From Nitrospirota bacterium (lineage in GTDB: Bacteria; Nitrospinota_A; UBA7883; JACRGQ01): a DNA stretch of 29,232 nt. Below, piece after piece: positions 5,554 to 28,611 of the stretch (position 1 is its first letter; each line of letters opens with the position of its first letter). Under the pieces are notes generated by a model. It was not told the DNA's origin. It saw only the letters and a list, made by a program, of their open reading frames with translations, and made no database searches. The stretch covers positions 1-29,232 of the forward strand of contig JAJRYD010000011.1 of the NCBI GenBank assembly GCA_024275955.1, read 5' to 3'. Both the position numbers and the translations under genes were made by a program.

Positions 5554-5642
5554 TGCGCTAGAGCGCGCGCAGGGGGATATCCTTGCTAGTCCGTAGTCAT
5601 TGCCGTAAGTGGCCTGCGCTAGAGGGAGCGCAGGGGGATATC
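5554..5642. repeat. 28-bp direct repeat duplicating the fhcD 3' end
   Basis: Copies at 5554-5581 and 5615-5642 begin TGCGCTAGAG and end GCAGGGGGATATC, differing at only two bases, with a 61-base period. The second copy contains the last codons and stop of fhcD (DIPLRSL then TAG). Read on the minus strand the first copy would encode DIPLRAL and a TAG. Confidence 0.8.
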
Positions 5643-6500
5643 TATATTTCCAAGCTTACCGCCAAAATTTGCCGCCCCGATTTTTAGCACCCCGCTTGTC
5701 GATGCCGCTGTTATCCCTTTTTTCATCGCTGTTTTGGCAATCTCTAGCGAGGTTGCGTTTATCACTATTTCGAAAATAGCCTCTACCCCCTCTGGTATTT
5801 TTCTGTTTTTGTTGTTGGTGATTGTGGGGCAGTAATCGGCCTGTGTAGATGCTTTCAGGCTTGAATAAGCCGAGCCTATTCTGCTTGGCGATGCCACCAC
5901 CCCGCCGGCAAACGGTAATATAAGCCCTTGCATTTCGGCTATCGCTTCGGCTCCATGCTCCGCCGCTTTTAGGCCGGTTTTGTACGATTTTGCAAAGACC
6001 CAAAAGTTGGCTCCGGCGATGCCACGCCCCATCTTCACGCTTTTCTCCATCATAAATTCGCCAGAGGTTATAGGCACCGAAACAAGGTCGCGGCCGAATT
6101 TTTTTCTGCCCGACTGATAGCTGTCGCCAAACATCGCAACCTTCTCCCCAAGCGGAAAATCTTCTCCTTTTGCAAGCCCGCTGAAAACCGTTACGGTAGG
6201 TGTCGGTAGGCAGACCTGCCCCACCCGTTTTATAAGCTCTTTTTTCAGCCTTTCTTTTGTTCTTGCAAAGAACAGCAGTTCATGCCCCGGCCTTCCATCT
6301 GGCGTGCTGAATGTTTCGCTTCTCGCTTCTATCCCTGCTTCGCACCCGCAACCGATTATAGAGGTGGCGCAACCGACAGATTTTACCGCCGCTTCGTATG
6401 CCCACTTTGCCGAGCGGGCGGTTATGACGAGCCTTGCGTAAAAAGCTTCAAACGCCTCTGCCGAAACGTCGTCTATCGGAACGGGGTTATTATGCATCAC
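5619..6500 (-). CDS. fhcD: Formylmethanofuran:tetrahydromethanopterin formyltransferase (Ftr/FhcD)
   Basis: 293 residues, against about 297-300 for the family. It moves the formyl group between methanofuran (or its bacterial analogue) and tetrahydromethanopterin in the cytoplasm, in the archaeal-type C1 pathway also found in methylotrophs and some other bacteria. Landmarks: SAEAFEAFYARLVITA at 13-28, GCGCEAGIEAR near 51, TPDGRPGHELLFFAR near 66, MFGDSYQSGRKK near 123, GIAGANFWVFAKS near 160, FAGGVVASPSRIGS near 197, DYCPTITNNK near 222, ANFGGKLG near the end. Start is GTG 6500 or the adjoining ATG 6497; AGGGTG abuts them, a poor ribosome site, but the N-terminus fits homologues. fhcA lies 1.9 kb away on the same strand; no fhcB or fhcC is in the window. 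A MITE occupies its upstream region. Confidence 0.9.
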   Translation of the reverse strand: MMHNNPVPIDDVSAEAFEAFYARLVITARSAKWAYEAAVKSVGCATSIIGCGCEAGIEARSETFSTPDGRPGHELLFFARTKERLKKELIKRVGQVCLPTPTVTVFSGLAKGEDFPLGEKVAMFGDSYQSGRKKFGRDLVSVPITSGEFMMEKSVKMGRGIAGANFWVFAKSYKTGLKAAEHGAEAIAEMQGLILPFAGGVVASPSRIGSAYSSLKASTQADYCPTITNNKNRKIPEGVEAIFEIVINATSLEIAKTAMKKGITAASTSGVLKIGAANFGGKLGNIDIPLRSL

Positions 6501-8411: not shown

Positions 8412-9671
8412 TTAAGCCCGATTGCCGTTTTTATAAACAATTCTCCCATCCTTTATCACAAATTTAGGCTTTCTAAACAGAGCTTCAAGCTTTGACGAGC
8501 TTATGCTTCCGATATCTCCTTTCGGAATTGGGTAGAGAACGATATCGGCTACCGAGCCTTCGCTTAGGTTTCCTCTTTTTTTCAGGCCGCAGGCGTTGGC
8601 GGGCGAACTTCGTGTAATTTGTGCGATTTCATCCAGCGAAAACTCCCTTGTTAGCGATGGAAGCCTTGAGTTTTTCAACGCTTCCTTGTTTAGCTTGCTG
8701 GCAAATTTGTCTCTTGCCTCTTTGGAGATGAGACAGGCGATGATGTTTGGGTAGCTTTCTATCCCCCCCCCCGACGGAAAGTCTATCGAAAGCGAAGCGT
8801 TGGAAATATCTTTTAGCTCAAGCAAAAGCTCCATGCCGGCCAGCCAGAATGTCGCGTCGATATAGCATTCTTTAAGAAAATTGTATTCCACCGCCATATA
8901 AGGGGAATTTTCAAGTTTCCTTAATTCCTTCTTGTTGCTTTTGGAAATCCTCTCGGCAAGCTCCGCGTAGGCAGTTAAAGAGAAGGTCTTTCCAAAACCT
9001 ACAGGCCCGAGGTCGAAAGATACGTTTTTATTTTTTTCAAGAAGCTTTACAGCTTTTTTTGCCATCGGCACAGGCTTTCCATCTTTTTCGCTAAAGATGT
9101 AATAAGCAAGGTGGGCTAGATGACAGTTTCGTCCGTCTGCTTTTTCCAAAAAATTTTCAAAGGTTTTTATGTTTCCGGGCTTTGCCAAGTGCGGAAGATG
9201 AATATGCGGCGGTATTGTATCAGTATGATTTTTTGATTTCAGGAAACGCTCCACGCCGCTCTCACCGACATATTTAATGGTAAGCGCATTTTCGTGAAGC
9301 GGTTCGTTACTGTCTAACTGCATCAAAGAGAAGTCTATCGGCAGTTTTTCTAGAACTGCTTGGTCTATCTGCGGTCTTGTCAGCCCTGCTTCTACAAAAA
9401 ATGTTATTCCCTGAGAAAGATACCGGCTCGTAAGGCTACGAAGGCTAAAAAGATTGCGCCAAAAACTATTGTGGTTTCGGGCAAAACCGGACGCGCCGAA
9501 GATATGCGTATGTATCTCAATAGCTCCCGGCATGGCAGTTAGTTCCGTTCCGTCAATAACAGCATCATCTGCCGAAGAGTTCACTATCTTCCCGCCTACA
9601 ATTGATATGTCGCCGGGCTTTTTGTGCATGCCGCCGCTTGGGTCGAAAACGGTAACGTTTTTTATCTTCAC
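8412..9671 (-). CDS. fhcA: Compact formylmethanofuran dehydrogenase subunit A-like amidohydrolase (FhcA/FwdA)
   Basis: 419 residues, clearly shorter than the roughly 550-570 of FwdA/FhcA. Landmarks run in family order: MPGAIEIHTHIFGA with the paired metal histidines H54/H56; LTIKYVGESG near 130, whose K133 may be the carboxylated lysine; HIHLPHLAKPGN near 156; NCHLAHLAYY near 182; VSFDLGPVGFGKTFSLTA near 217; AGMELLLEL near 278; LSIDFPSGGGIESYP with D297; REFSLDEIAQITRSSPANAC and GSVADIVLYP at the end. In the family this subunit hydrolyses formylmethanofuran. Start GTG 9671 lies 7 bases past the tonB stop, behind AAGGTAG, suggesting one transcript with tonB. A related amidohydrolase outside the Fhc complex remains possible. 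Confidence 0.75.
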   Translation of the reverse strand: MKIKNVTVFDPSGGMHKKPGDISIVGGKIVNSSADDAVIDGTELTAMPGAIEIHTHIFGASGFARNHNSFWRNLFSLRSLTSRYLSQGITFFVEAGLTRPQIDQAVLEKLPIDFSLMQLDSNEPLHENALTIKYVGESGVERFLKSKNHTDTIPPHIHLPHLAKPGNIKTFENFLEKADGRNCHLAHLAYYIFSEKDGKPVPMAKKAVKLLEKNKNVSFDLGPVGFGKTFSLTAYAELAERISKSNKKELRKLENSPYMAVEYNFLKECYIDATFWLAGMELLLELKDISNASLSIDFPSGGGIESYPNIIACLISKEARDKFASKLNKEALKNSRLPSLTREFSLDEIAQITRSSPANACGLKKRGNLSEGSVADIVLYPIPKGDIGSISSSKLEALFRKPKFVIKDGRIVYKNGNRA

Positions 9672-9678
9672 AAAAAAA

Positions 9679-9939
9679 CTACCTTCGGGTTTTTATCGGG
9701 TTGAACGTTGGTGAGTAATTGAAATTAGCGGTAATATGAATTTTCTTTTTCTTGAGCGTCTCTGGAAATGGGCGAAACGGCACCGCCCGTTCGATAGCTT
9801 TTGCCGAAGCGTCATCAAGTACTTTTTCCCCTGACGAGTTGACAATAGTAACCTCTTCCAGTTCTCCGTTTGCCAGCACGGTAAACCTTATAAAAGCATT
9901 GCCTCCTATGTTGTTCATAATCGCCATATCAGGATAAAA
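9679..9939 (-). pseudogene. TonB C-terminal domain, downstream of the amber codon
   Basis: In the same frame as the N-terminal part at 9940-10767 and separated from it only by a TAG. It reads FYPDMAIMNNIGGNAFIRF, then the typical TonB C-terminal pattern VLANGELEEVTIVNSSG, VLDDASAKAIERAVPFRPFP and the last strand HITANFNYSP. This domain normally contacts the TonB box of outer-membrane receptors. ATG 9927 could restart translation but has no ribosome site, and the product would have no membrane anchor. It ends with TAG, so TAG also serves as an ordinary stop here. Confidence 0.75.
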
Positions 9940-10767
9940 CTAGACAGCCTCTATCGCTTTTCGTATTTCCAGAAAGTAAGAGGCATACTTGAATCTCTTG
10001 GTATTGAGCGACACCACCGCTTCATCGCCTGTTTCATAAAAGGCATGCCTGTTGTTTTTTATCATAATATCTACATCGGCTCCCTTAAGAAGCGGCACTC
10101 CCGCTTGCTCATCATCGACAAGAGGGTTTTTGTGCCCTTGCTCAAGGTCAACTACAGGGCTTACCGCACTCTTTCTAGATTCTTTTATGTTTTTTACGTC
10201 AGCTTTCGGCTCTCTCTTCTCAACGGTAAACCTTGATGTTCCAAAAGCATCCTGAAAGTTATCAGAAACTTTTTTTTCGACCTCTTTTACCTCAGGGCTT
10301 ACCCTCTTATCCGGCAGTTTGGTTCCCGCTTTTTTAACCTTTATCTCTTTTTCGGCGTCTCTGCCGCTTAACCTTATTCGTTCAATAGGAACTTGCTCTT
10401 TTTCCCCCGTTTTAAGCTTTTCGTTACCTTTCGTTTTTGTGCGCGAGTTAATAGCCGCCAGCATAGTTGCGTCGCTGGGAGCTTCTTCCAGCTTTTCCGC
10501 AGAGCTGTCAACAATTTCACCTGCCGGCATATCTTCGTTTGGTGCAATTTTATCTATGATAAGCGATACGGAAATCGGCACATGGCGGTAGCTGGAAACT
10601 CCGATTACAAGCCCGGAAAACAAAGTGAAAACAAAGTGTATCAAAACTGACAGTAGAATATATCTCGGCAGGCGGTTTATGCTTTTTGGCAGTCGCTGGA
10701 AATAGCGCGGCAAAGTGCTGACATATTCCATCGGCTTAATTTTACTTTCTTTATGGTGGTTCGACAA
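9940..10767 (-). CDS. tonB: TonB-like protein, N-terminal anchor and linker, ending at an in-frame TAG
   Basis: 275 residues up to an amber codon. Residues 37-60 form a single transmembrane anchor (ILLSVLIHFVFTLFSGLVIG), followed by a long charged, Lys/Glu-rich periplasmic linker to about 245. It then enters the conserved lead-in to the TonB C-terminal domain: VSLNTKRFKYASYFLEIRKA then IEAV. Homologues usually have a tryptophan at the next position (IxxxW.YP). Here the codon is TAG and FYPD follows in frame, so TGG to TAG is the simplest explanation. Without readthrough the protein lacks its receptor-contact domain. It appears to head an operon with fhcA. Confidence 0.75.
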   Translation of the reverse strand: MSNHHKESKIKPMEYVSTLPRYFQRLPKSINRLPRYILLSVLIHFVFTLFSGLVIGVSSYRHVPISVSLIIDKIAPNEDMPAGEIVDSSAEKLEEAPSDATMLAAINSRTKTKGNEKLKTGEKEQVPIERIRLSGRDAEKEIKVKKAGTKLPDKRVSPEVKEVEKKVSDNFQDAFGTSRFTVEKREPKADVKNIKESRKSAVSPVVDLEQGHKNPLVDDEQAGVPLLKGADVDIMIKNNRHAFYETGDEAVVSLNTKRFKYASYFLEIRKAIEAV

Positions 10768-17826: not shown

Positions 17827-18025
17827 ATGACCCAGCAACAGCATATCATCAGGCGCAAATTGAACATTGTAGACCTCTCTTCCCAGCTTAGAAACATCAG
17901 CGAAGCATGCAGAAAGTTAGGCGTAAGCCGTCGTCATTATTACGATATTAAGACTGCCCTTGAGGAAGAAGGCGTAGAGGGGCTTCTAGAAAAAGCAAGA
18001 GAAATTCGTCTTCGCCTGCGAGGTT
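17827..18025 (+). pseudogene. N-terminal HTH fragment of a transposase, joined to a sigma-factor remnant
   Basis: Begins at ATG 17827 with an excellent AAAGGAG site 6 bases upstream. It reads MTQQQHIIRRKLNIVDLSSQ, then ISEACRKLGVSRRHYYDIKT and EEEGVEGLLEKARE. This is the N-terminal HTH of an IS481-like rve transposase. The transposase similarity stops near 18002; the frame then runs on to a stop at 18112-18114 over DNA that encodes a sigma-factor region in the +1 frame. The catalytic domain is absent, so the element cannot move itself. A 95-residue hybrid protein could still be made. Confidence 0.7.
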
Positions 18026-18232
18026 ATGGAAGTTATAGAAAAGTGCCTCGAAGCTTTGCCACTTTCCCAAAGAATGGCATTTTCACTACGGGGAATAGAG
18101 CATTTCAGCAATAAGGAAATCTGCGAAATTACAGGCGTAACGGAGTCCAATCTGGGAGTGCTTCAATACCGCGCGAGAAACAGGCTACGCGAATGTATAG
18201 AGAAAAAAGTAAGTTCGGATGGAGAAAAATAG
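18003..18232 (+). pseudogene. C-terminal fragment of an ECF sigma factor (region 4)
   Basis: In the +1 frame relative to the transposase fragment. From about 18003 it reads VFACEVMEVIEKCLEALPLS, then RGIEHFSNKEICEITGV and LGVLQYRARNRLRECIEKK. This is sigma-70 region 4 with its HTH (SNKEICEITGVTESNLGVLQ), as in ECF factors. Region 2, needed to bind core RNA polymerase and the -10 element, is missing and appears replaced by the transposase piece. ATG 18026 has no good ribosome site. The TAG at 18230-18232 lies one base before the anti-sigma ATG at 18234, the usual tight sigma/anti-sigma spacing. Confidence 0.75.
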
Positions 18233-23294: not shown

Positions 23295-24296
23295 ATGGAA
23301 GACAGATTCAATTCTCTGGGAAGGTTTCTTAAAAAAACGTTCGGAGAAAGAGTTCATAGAGCAAATATAAACATACCCGGCAAAAAGTTTGAAACAGAGG
23401 AAACGCCGGAAGGCTACGCGCTCTGCCTGGGAGGCCCTCTGGAAGCTCCTGTATCTACAGGAGAAACATTATCCGTAAAAGAGCAACTGCGAAAAGCAAA
23501 GGAAAGAATAAGAACCAAGTTCAAAATCGGTAAATACATCATACATTTCCATTCGCGTACCGGCGAATATCTAAGCCTCAAGACGATAGAAGATACTATC
23601 GAAACAACCCTTCAGGATAACGAAATAATAGGCCTGAACTTCACTGTGAGGATGAATCATCTCGATAATGATATGACAAGTCTCCTCTCCAAAACTTCTA
23701 AATATATATATCTATGGCTTGAAACCGGCATATACACGGCAAACGATTCGACGCTGGAAAAGCTCGGCGCAAACTTCAGGTTTAGCGATGTGTTAGAAAA
23801 AATGGAAGCTCTAATGAGAAAAAACATACAGGCCTCCCCGCATATAGTTTTAGGTCTACCGGGTGAAACAGACGAAATGATGCGGCAAACGATGGAAAAA
23901 GTTTCGACCATGCTTGTAAAGGGAGTGAACATGCAGCATTTCTGCATGCACAACGGCTCGCCATTCGCGCAAGCATACAATAATAATGAAATAAAACTGC
24001 TGTCGCAAAAAGAATATGTTTCATTAGCGTGCGATTTTATAGAAATCCTGCCTCCGAAAATTGTCCTGCGCAGAATAGTCGGCGAAATGCCTCACCAATC
24101 TCTTCTTGGGCCGGAGTGGACCAAAAACAAACGGGAAAGCATTACCGCAATAAGCGAAGAGATGGAAAGAAGAAACAGCCGTCAGGGATGCAAAAACCGA
24201 TTGTACGAGTACGAGGTTATGAACAGCTATCAAAACGGGGAGCCGGAAAAAAAGGAAACAGTTTTAGAAACAGCAAAGCCGGCGGCGAATGACTAA
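23295..24296 (+). CDS. TIGR01212/YhcC-family protein lacking radical-SAM cluster cysteines
   Basis: 333 residues following the YhcC/TIGR01212 layout along their length: NSLGRFLKKTFGERVHRANI near 6, KYIIHFHSRTGEYLS near 80, YIYLWLETGIYTANDSTLEK near 139, NIQASPHIVLGLPGETDEMM near 175, VNMQHFCMHNGSPFAQAY near 205, LPPKIVLRRIVGEMPHQSL near 245, and LGPEWTKNKRESI near 268. Where relatives carry the iron-sulfur motif (CPNR...GGCxxC after the GERV segment) this protein has KFETEETPEGYALCLGGPLE, with a single cysteine. It should not bind a 4Fe-4S cluster and is probably not a radical-SAM enzyme. AAGGA lies 9 bases before ATG 23295. It appears to be in one unit with the NtrC-type gene. Confidence 0.8.
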   Translation: MEDRFNSLGRFLKKTFGERVHRANINIPGKKFETEETPEGYALCLGGPLEAPVSTGETLSVKEQLRKAKERIRTKFKIGKYIIHFHSRTGEYLSLKTIEDTIETTLQDNEIIGLNFTVRMNHLDNDMTSLLSKTSKYIYLWLETGIYTANDSTLEKLGANFRFSDVLEKMEALMRKNIQASPHIVLGLPGETDEMMRQTMEKVSTMLVKGVNMQHFCMHNGSPFAQAYNNNEIKLLSQKEYVSLACDFIEILPPKIVLRRIVGEMPHQSLLGPEWTKNKRESITAISEEMERRNSRQGCKNRLYEYEVMNSYQNGEPEKKETVLETAKPAAND

Positions 24297-27398: not shown

Positions 27399-27623
27399 TT
27401 GAAGACAGACCTAAAAACAATCGAAGAAAAGCTTGGAAAAGCTAAAGAAGCGCTGAAAGGCAAAGAAAAGAACGAACTAAGGGATGCCCGCAAAAGGGTT
27501 AAAAGGCTTCAAAGAAAGAAAAGCAAGAGAGAGACTGCCGTCAAAAAGGCCGAAATAAAAACCAAAGGCAAGAAAAAAGCGCCGGAAGCAAACGCAAAAC
27601 CTGCCGAAGCAAAAGCAGAATAA
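27399..27623 (+). CDS. Small basic Lys/Ala-rich coiled-coil protein
   Basis: 74 residues from TTG 27399, which has GGAGG 8 bases upstream; the earlier ATG at 27300 lies ahead of the likely promoter and lacks a ribosome site. It reads KTDLKTIEEKLGKAKEALKG, then RDARKRVKRLQRKKSKR, and ends in a Lys/Ala/Glu-rich low-complexity tail (KKAPEANAKPAEAKAE). The first 50 residues could form one charged helix or coiled coil. Very high pI suggests nucleic-acid binding or ribosome association, as an inference only. No family recognised. A 39-base repeat begins 3 bases after the stop. Confidence 0.6.
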   Translation: MKTDLKTIEEKLGKAKEALKGKEKNELRDARKRVKRLQRKKSKRETAVKKAEIKTKGKKKAPEANAKPAEAKAE

Positions 27624-27625
27624 CC

Positions 27626-27769
27626 CCACGCAGGGGCGTGGAGCCGGTTCTCACAGGTGGAGAATAAAACTTTTGGCAGTTCCGAATATATTTCCACAAT
27701 AGCCAAAGGCAAGCAGACACGCAATGCGTGCCACGCAGGGGCGTGGAGCCGGTTCTCACAGGTGGAGAA
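27626..27769. repeat. Two identical 39-bp repeats with internal palindromes
   Basis: Copies at 27626-27664 and 27731-27769 are identical over 39 bases, beginning CCACGCAGGGGCGTGGAGCC and ending CACAGGTGGAGAA. Each contains CCACGC/GCGTGG, and GTTCTC/GAGAA(C) forms a second hairpin. The 66 bases between end in ACACGCAATGCGTG, another palindrome. The CCACGCA-type hairpin recurs at 20086-20100. They look like dispersed REP-type repeats. Confidence 0.8.
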
Positions 27770-27783
27770 CAGCGTAATCTGCA

Positions 27784-28611
27784 ATGACGAGGCACGACAT
27801 TAAACAAGCAACTACCCTCAAGCAGGGACTGGAAAAACTTTACAAACTGTTCGACCGCTCCTTCATCTCCCCCGACCCGCTTGAATGCGTTCCATTAAAA
27901 GGAAATTTTAAAGATAAAGAGCTCTCCGCGTTCATAGCGGCCAGCTTCGCCTACGGCAGGGCGGAGCTTATAGTTAAAACTGTCGGCTATATTTTAGGCG
28001 AGCTGGGTGGCAAACCGCACGCGACACTGATGTCGGGCAGATACAAAACGAAATTCAAAAATTTTAAATACCGTTTCCATAAACGGGCCGACCTCTTATG
28101 GTTTTTGGGGCGGTTAGCAAAAATTTATGCAGAGTATGGAACATTGGAAAAAGCTTTTCTTAAGGGCGGCGATAATCAAAAAGATAGGCTCAGAAATTTC
28201 TCGCAGTTTTTTAACGGTGCTGGAAAGCTGACGCAGGCAAAAAAGTTCCTCGTCCCATCCCCTGCCGGCAGTTCGGCATGCAAACGGCTAAACCTATTCT
28301 TAAGATGGATGGTACGAAAAGATTCGCTCGACCTCGGCCTATGGGAAAAAGCTAGTCCGGCAGACCTTATAATCCCGCTTGATGTTCATGTTCATAGGAT
28401 AGCTACTAGGATAGGCTTAGTGAGCGACGGCCCGGCAAACTATAAACGGGCCGAAGAGCTAACCGCCAACCTTAGGCTTATGAACGCTAACGACCCTGTG
28501 CGGTACGACTTTGCTATCTGCTCGCTTGGCAAGCTTGGGCATTGCGGCAAAACGCTGGTTAAAGAAAAATGTATTAAATGTGTTTTACGAGGGCATTGCT
28601 CGGAAATCTAG
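27784..28611 (+). CDS. TIGR02757 (DUF2400) family protein
   Basis: 275 residues, the usual length for the family. Landmarks: FIAASFAYGRAELIVKTVGY near 50, RFHKRADLLWFL near 98, KRLNLFLRWMVRKDSLDLGL near 167, ASPADLIIPLDVHVHRIATR near 189, DPVRYDFAICSLG near 235, and a C-terminal cysteine set CGKTLVKEKCIKCVLRGHC. The arrangement recalls HhH-GPD DNA glycosylases with a terminal iron-sulfur cluster, but the function of TIGR02757 is unknown to me. ATG 27784 has no obvious ribosome site; it starts 15 bases after the second 39-bp repeat. Confidence 0.85.
   Translation: MTRHDIKQATTLKQGLEKLYKLFDRSFISPDPLECVPLKGNFKDKELSAFIAASFAYGRAELIVKTVGYILGELGGKPHATLMSGRYKTKFKNFKYRFHKRADLLWFLGRLAKIYAEYGTLEKAFLKGGDNQKDRLRNFSQFFNGAGKLTQAKKFLVPSPAGSSACKRLNLFLRWMVRKDSLDLGLWEKASPADLIIPLDVHVHRIATRIGLVSDGPANYKRAEELTANLRLMNANDPVRYDFAICSLGKLGHCGKTLVKEKCIKCVLRGHCSEI

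Follow-up and report, generated by a model that had tools for sequence, protein, structure and literature searches.

Why does an uncultured Nitrospinota-like bacterium carry an amber codon in a tonB gene whose frame is otherwise intact? On the stretch of 29,232 nucleotides analysed here (the window), this tonB-family gene occupies positions 9679..10767 of the minus strand and comprises 362 codons followed by a terminal TAG (9679..9681, minus strand). Another TAG at 9940..9942 (minus strand) forms codon 276, at the place where relatives have TGG, the Trp codon of a W-x-YP motif. The original prediction had described an in-frame amber codon at the expected tryptophan in a frame intact over 362 codons, and both descriptions held. 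Of the three origins it had proposed, a sequencing or assembly error and a fresh nonsense mutation gained support, while amber suppression, including decoding as pyrrolysine, was not supported. We consider it most likely, with a probability of about 0.65, that the TAG is a base error in the consensus, that no decoding system is involved and that the error shares its cause with stray stops elsewhere in the assembly.

The interrupted tonB gene

The frame has starts at 10767 (TTG) and 10731 (ATG) and is open from 10767 to 9679 throughout, apart from codon 276. Its upstream part (9943..10767, minus strand, 275 codons) encodes a membrane anchor and a linker and by itself gave no Pfam match. The downstream part (9682..9939, minus strand), open up to the terminal TAG, encodes the TonB C-terminal domain (PF03544). 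When the gene was read through the amber codon, its product matched TonB_C (PF03544) with 60.4 bits (cut-off 24.6) over residues 277-352, beginning directly 3' of the TAG, and TIGR01352 with 50.5 bits (cut-off 27.1). Hence, the C-terminal domain of the TonB family is present, while the continuous frame from anchor to domain is broken at 9940-9942 and the TAG takes the place of the conserved Trp that borders the domain. A chance open frame behind the TAG was rejected, as another 86 codons follow in the same frame and mostly encode the conserved domain. The 103 nt that start with the TAG showed no significant RNA structure when folded (z -0.56), and readthrough driven by a stem-loop was dismissed on the same ground, the downstream folding being ordinary.

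A second intact tonB gene was not found in the genome. The only other protein with a TonB_C domain is TolA, which is encoded in a tol cluster adjoining TolQ/TolR-like and TolB-like ORFs. Thus, if the TAG were real, no intact TonB would be left. A literature search on the TonB Trp residue gave no match.

The tonB gene in relatives

Orthologues of tonB were searched for in 60 related genomes and obtained from the same family and class. At least 20 relatives possess Trp at the TAG position in an unsplit tonB, the matching codon in the aligned relatives being TGG, and where the contig is complete, their gene is one uninterrupted ORF of about 270-370 aa. Trp in an unsplit gene was also found in five named MAGs (L185-L189; Nitrospinota and one Nitrospirae record), and residues other than Trp occurred in this column only in distant TonB-like proteins. 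A naturally split tonB in relatives, the observation named beforehand as speaking against an unusual amber codon, was looked for among these genomes and not encountered. Interior stops reported in tonB matches of relatives were discarded as they are located outside the aligned region, bar one near the end of L019. A search of the GTDB contig set for this species returned relatives only, so that this exact tonB allele could be viewed in one assembly only. In four genomes of the same family (G003, G004, G005 and G008; contigs C192, C76, C121 and C55), tonB lies near pyrF; in the genome studied here, pyrF resides on a different contig from tonB.

Decoding machinery and stop codon usage

The assembly (2.45 Mb, 56 contigs) is 98.4% complete. 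The original prediction had suggested looking for a CUA-anticodon tRNA and for pyrrolysine genes; neither such a tRNA nor PylS was found. Models of the N- and C-terminal parts of PylS did not yield a match over the cut-off in the whole assembly, the best scores being 13.3 bits for TIGR03912 (cut-off 51.15) and 20 bits for TIGR02367 (cut-off 178.15). Typing with ARAGORN of the 40 tRNAs detected genome-wide disclosed one normal tRNA-Trp(CCA) and no stop-reading anticodon, CUA included, and ARAGORN did not report a CUA or other stop-reading tRNA on 20-kb sample stretches either. The general tRNA model could miss an atypical tRNA-Pyl, and since tRNA-Ile(GAU) and tRNA-Ala(UGC) were not seen, the catalogue falls slightly short of complete.

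RF1 (prfA) is present and scored over its cut-off (481 bits), and there is a second release-factor-like gene. Among 422 long ORFs of a sample, the terminators were TAA in 187, TAG in 134 and TGA in 101 cases. In a genome with reassigned TAG this codon would be rare as terminator and RF1 lost, neither of which applies here. The doubt already cast on recoding, on the ground that fhcD, aclB and tonB itself end in TAG, was justified: all three terminators were verified, and both the frequency of TAG and the normal RF1 point in the same direction.

Interior stops in other genes of the assembly

We scanned stretches of this genome totalling 755 kb after masked bases for in-frame stops flanked on both sides by coding sequence, and tested the candidates by family models and homology. 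The candidates were selected manually and not blind. In guaA, a TAA at codon 418 lies within a full-length match to the GMP synthase model; no interior stop of guaA was found in 34 relatives. In ribBA, a TAA interrupts GTP cyclohydrolase II at a position where the 11 relatives compared all have a Glu codon (GAA or GAG). Stops reported in ribBA of relatives were set aside, as those that could be inspected lie either 5' of the start or beyond the aligned section. The pyrF gene contains a TGA inside OMP decarboxylase (OMPdecase), at a position mostly occupied by Ala or Gly in relatives. Each of these three genes is present in one copy. Additional stops affect fliN (TAA inside TIGR02480), pal (TAA in the linker), a repeat protein (TAA where the parallel repeats read Glu) and a phage terminase-like gene (interior TAG). 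Together with tonB, the interrupted genes are distributed over contigs C6, C10, C23, C29, C33 and C53, none of them at a contig end. The count excludes four uncertain positions (L113:9348, L122:1027, L092:13958 and L098:14223). Random substitutions would yield TAG, TAA and TGA in proportions of 0.39, 0.41 and 0.20, with which the stop types seen are compatible.

A ParA-like gene (L090:9590-10320, plus strand) exhibits an altered P-loop (GGNGKTT) and, besides an in-frame TAG, two changes of frame. It looks like a true pseudogene and is a sign that this genome has undergone some real decay.

As controls, we scanned in the same way 1.096 Mb of sequence from G002 and G005 (same family) and G011 (same class, four contigs). 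This sequence did not contain comparable interior stops, bar one TGA at a Cys position. In ten control candidates, no Pfam domain spanned the stop; tandem genes or gene ends were found instead. The exceptional TGA (G011 L169:18461, minus strand) takes the Cys position in a peroxiredoxin-like motif (FFPKANTSG-TGA-TTEA) and likely encodes selenocysteine. Since it was picked up, the scan is able to detect true recoding. With tonB excluded as the index case, the composition scan gave five cases in the own genome versus none in the controls (one with the selenocysteine candidate). The chance of a ratio of 5 to 0, if stops were even over the scanned bases, is about 0.01, a figure that serves as a guide and not as a formal test because the cases were selected by hand. 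A screen based on homology alone recovered tonB, fliN and the terminase gene in the 203 kb of own sequence that it covered and no convincing case in approximately 362 kb of covered control sequence.

Other features of the window

The fhcD gene is intact at 5619-6500, near a gene for a FwdA-like amidohydrolase (8412-9671, minus strand) whose product of 419 aa, compared with a 556-position model, scored below the cut-off. At 23295-24296 (plus strand), a radical SAM protein of the MnmL/YtqA type is encoded (TIGR01212, 194 bits, cut-off 180). No CxxxCxxC cluster motif was seen in it, and judging from its sequence, it is possibly an inactive paralogue. A short helix-turn-helix fragment of the transposase type at 17827-18114 (plus strand) is apparently a truncated insertion element. 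Adjoining a DUF2400 gene, a repeated stretch at 27509-27807 (minus strand) carries SPPVRTGSTPLRG twice in one translated frame and looks like an intergenic repeat element.

Discussion

The lesions described above have undecayed frames, comprise all three stops and lie in genes that are open in relatives. Base errors fit best because all three stops occur and are scattered over several contigs, and it is the presence of stray stops of three kinds in other single-copy housekeeping genes that makes an error the most likely origin of the tonB TAG, too. The same class of lesion was found in unrelated conserved genes and is absent from relatives, as expected of base errors in an assembly. A suppressor acting on one codon is unable to account for all of them, and the lesions of guaA, ribBA and pyrF together are not easily explained by real mutations. 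Wrong bases in the consensus would account for every one of the lesions. The TAG would then be a base-level nonsense change in the sole TonB gene of this bacterium, and the living cell probably has a Trp codon there as its relatives do. As written, the gene would be translated only up to a point before the C-terminal domain, and the truncated TonB would not contact the outer-membrane receptors.

Several observations speak against a base error. About 3.8% of substitutions create a stop, so that at least eight stops in approximately 656 kb of coding sequence imply some 200 or more wrong bases if these are random. Such a consensus would be poor, yet it is not impossible; for an assembly of 56 contigs and 98% completeness, the implied rate (about 3 or more per 10 kb of coding sequence) is high. 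Missense changes at invariant positions of guaA, ribBA and pyrF were not clearly above those of other genomes, the expected number being small. The parallel copies in the repeat protein have GAG, which is two bases away from TAA unless the ancestor was GAA, and the ParA-like gene with its frameshifts and TAG looks like a real pseudogene.

The main rival to a base error is a real nonsense allele, meaning a population with a broken tonB, either a fresh pseudogene or a segregating allele, that has lost TonB-dependent uptake. We hold this to be unlikely but worth serious consideration. A single G to A change in the gene that is intact in relatives gives the TAG, the remaining frame is undecayed, as expected of a fresh event, and at least the ParA-like gene of L090 is decayed in this genome. 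Cells supplied with iron can manage without TonB. A nonsense allele leaves unexplained, though, the equal lesions in single-copy guaA, ribBA and pyrF, genes that a free-living autotroph is expected to need, and the genome offers no other TonB besides the TolA protein of the tol cluster. If, on the other hand, the sequence is right throughout, the undecayed downstream domains of these single-copy, essential-type genes need to be translated, which might be achieved by a general readthrough: interior stops of three kinds would be tolerated and partly translated, and tonB, guaA, ribBA and pyrF would be functional. This is very improbable, given that all three stops are ordinary terminators, that the genome has RF1 and another release-factor-like gene and no stop-reading tRNA was found, that the sampled genomes of the same family do not show it, and that the sequence behind the tonB TAG lacks significant RNA structure. 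Real stops of three kinds in such genes, combined with general readthrough that works without a dedicated suppressor tRNA, appear even a little less credible.

A decoding specific to UAG, by pyrrolysine or an amber suppressor tRNA, would agree with the C1 enzymes in the window (fhcD and the FwdA-like protein) and with the frame that stays open past the TAG. We give it hardly any credence: in a genome of this completeness, neither a PylS domain over the cut-off nor a CUA anticodon was detected, TAG is a common terminator, and the site is a structural Trp and not the active site of a methylamine methyltransferase. Most of the other in-frame stops, moreover, are TAA or TGA, which speaks against the pyrrolysine and amber suppression considered in the original prediction. 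Just as implausible is a programmed split, in which translation would terminate at the TAG, restart at the ATG five codons further on and so yield the two halves as separate proteins. ATG codons do exist five and eight codons 3' of the TAG, but split genes are absent from the relatives, the sequence preceding 9927 shows no ribosome-binding site at a usable distance, and the C-terminal domain alone would be devoid of an export signal.

As biology, an interrupted gene in an uncultured genome is probably of no weight. The base error that we favour calls for caution in another respect: a lone in-frame amber codon can pass for recoding until the rest of the assembly has been checked, and gene-loss calls from assembly GCA_024275955.1 need care.

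The locus shares with pyrrolysine decoding of UAG an in-frame TAG behind which the frame continues. It differs by the lack of PylS and of a CUA tRNA among the genes found, by the unrelated protein and by a site that is Trp in relatives. With the TonB family (PF03544/TIGR01352) it has in common the membrane-anchored N-terminus, the long linker and the C-terminal domain; in that family the W-x-YP motif is conserved and the orthologues of the same family and class are unbroken, whereas here the Trp is replaced by an in-frame TAG, and the C-terminal domain would not be made without readthrough. What this assembly has in common with unpolished or low-coverage metagenome assemblies is scattered stops of three types in otherwise intact conserved genes, with single-copy genes of the essential type among those interrupted. 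Here, the lesions are mostly of the substitution type, with frame changes mainly in one decayed ParA-like gene.
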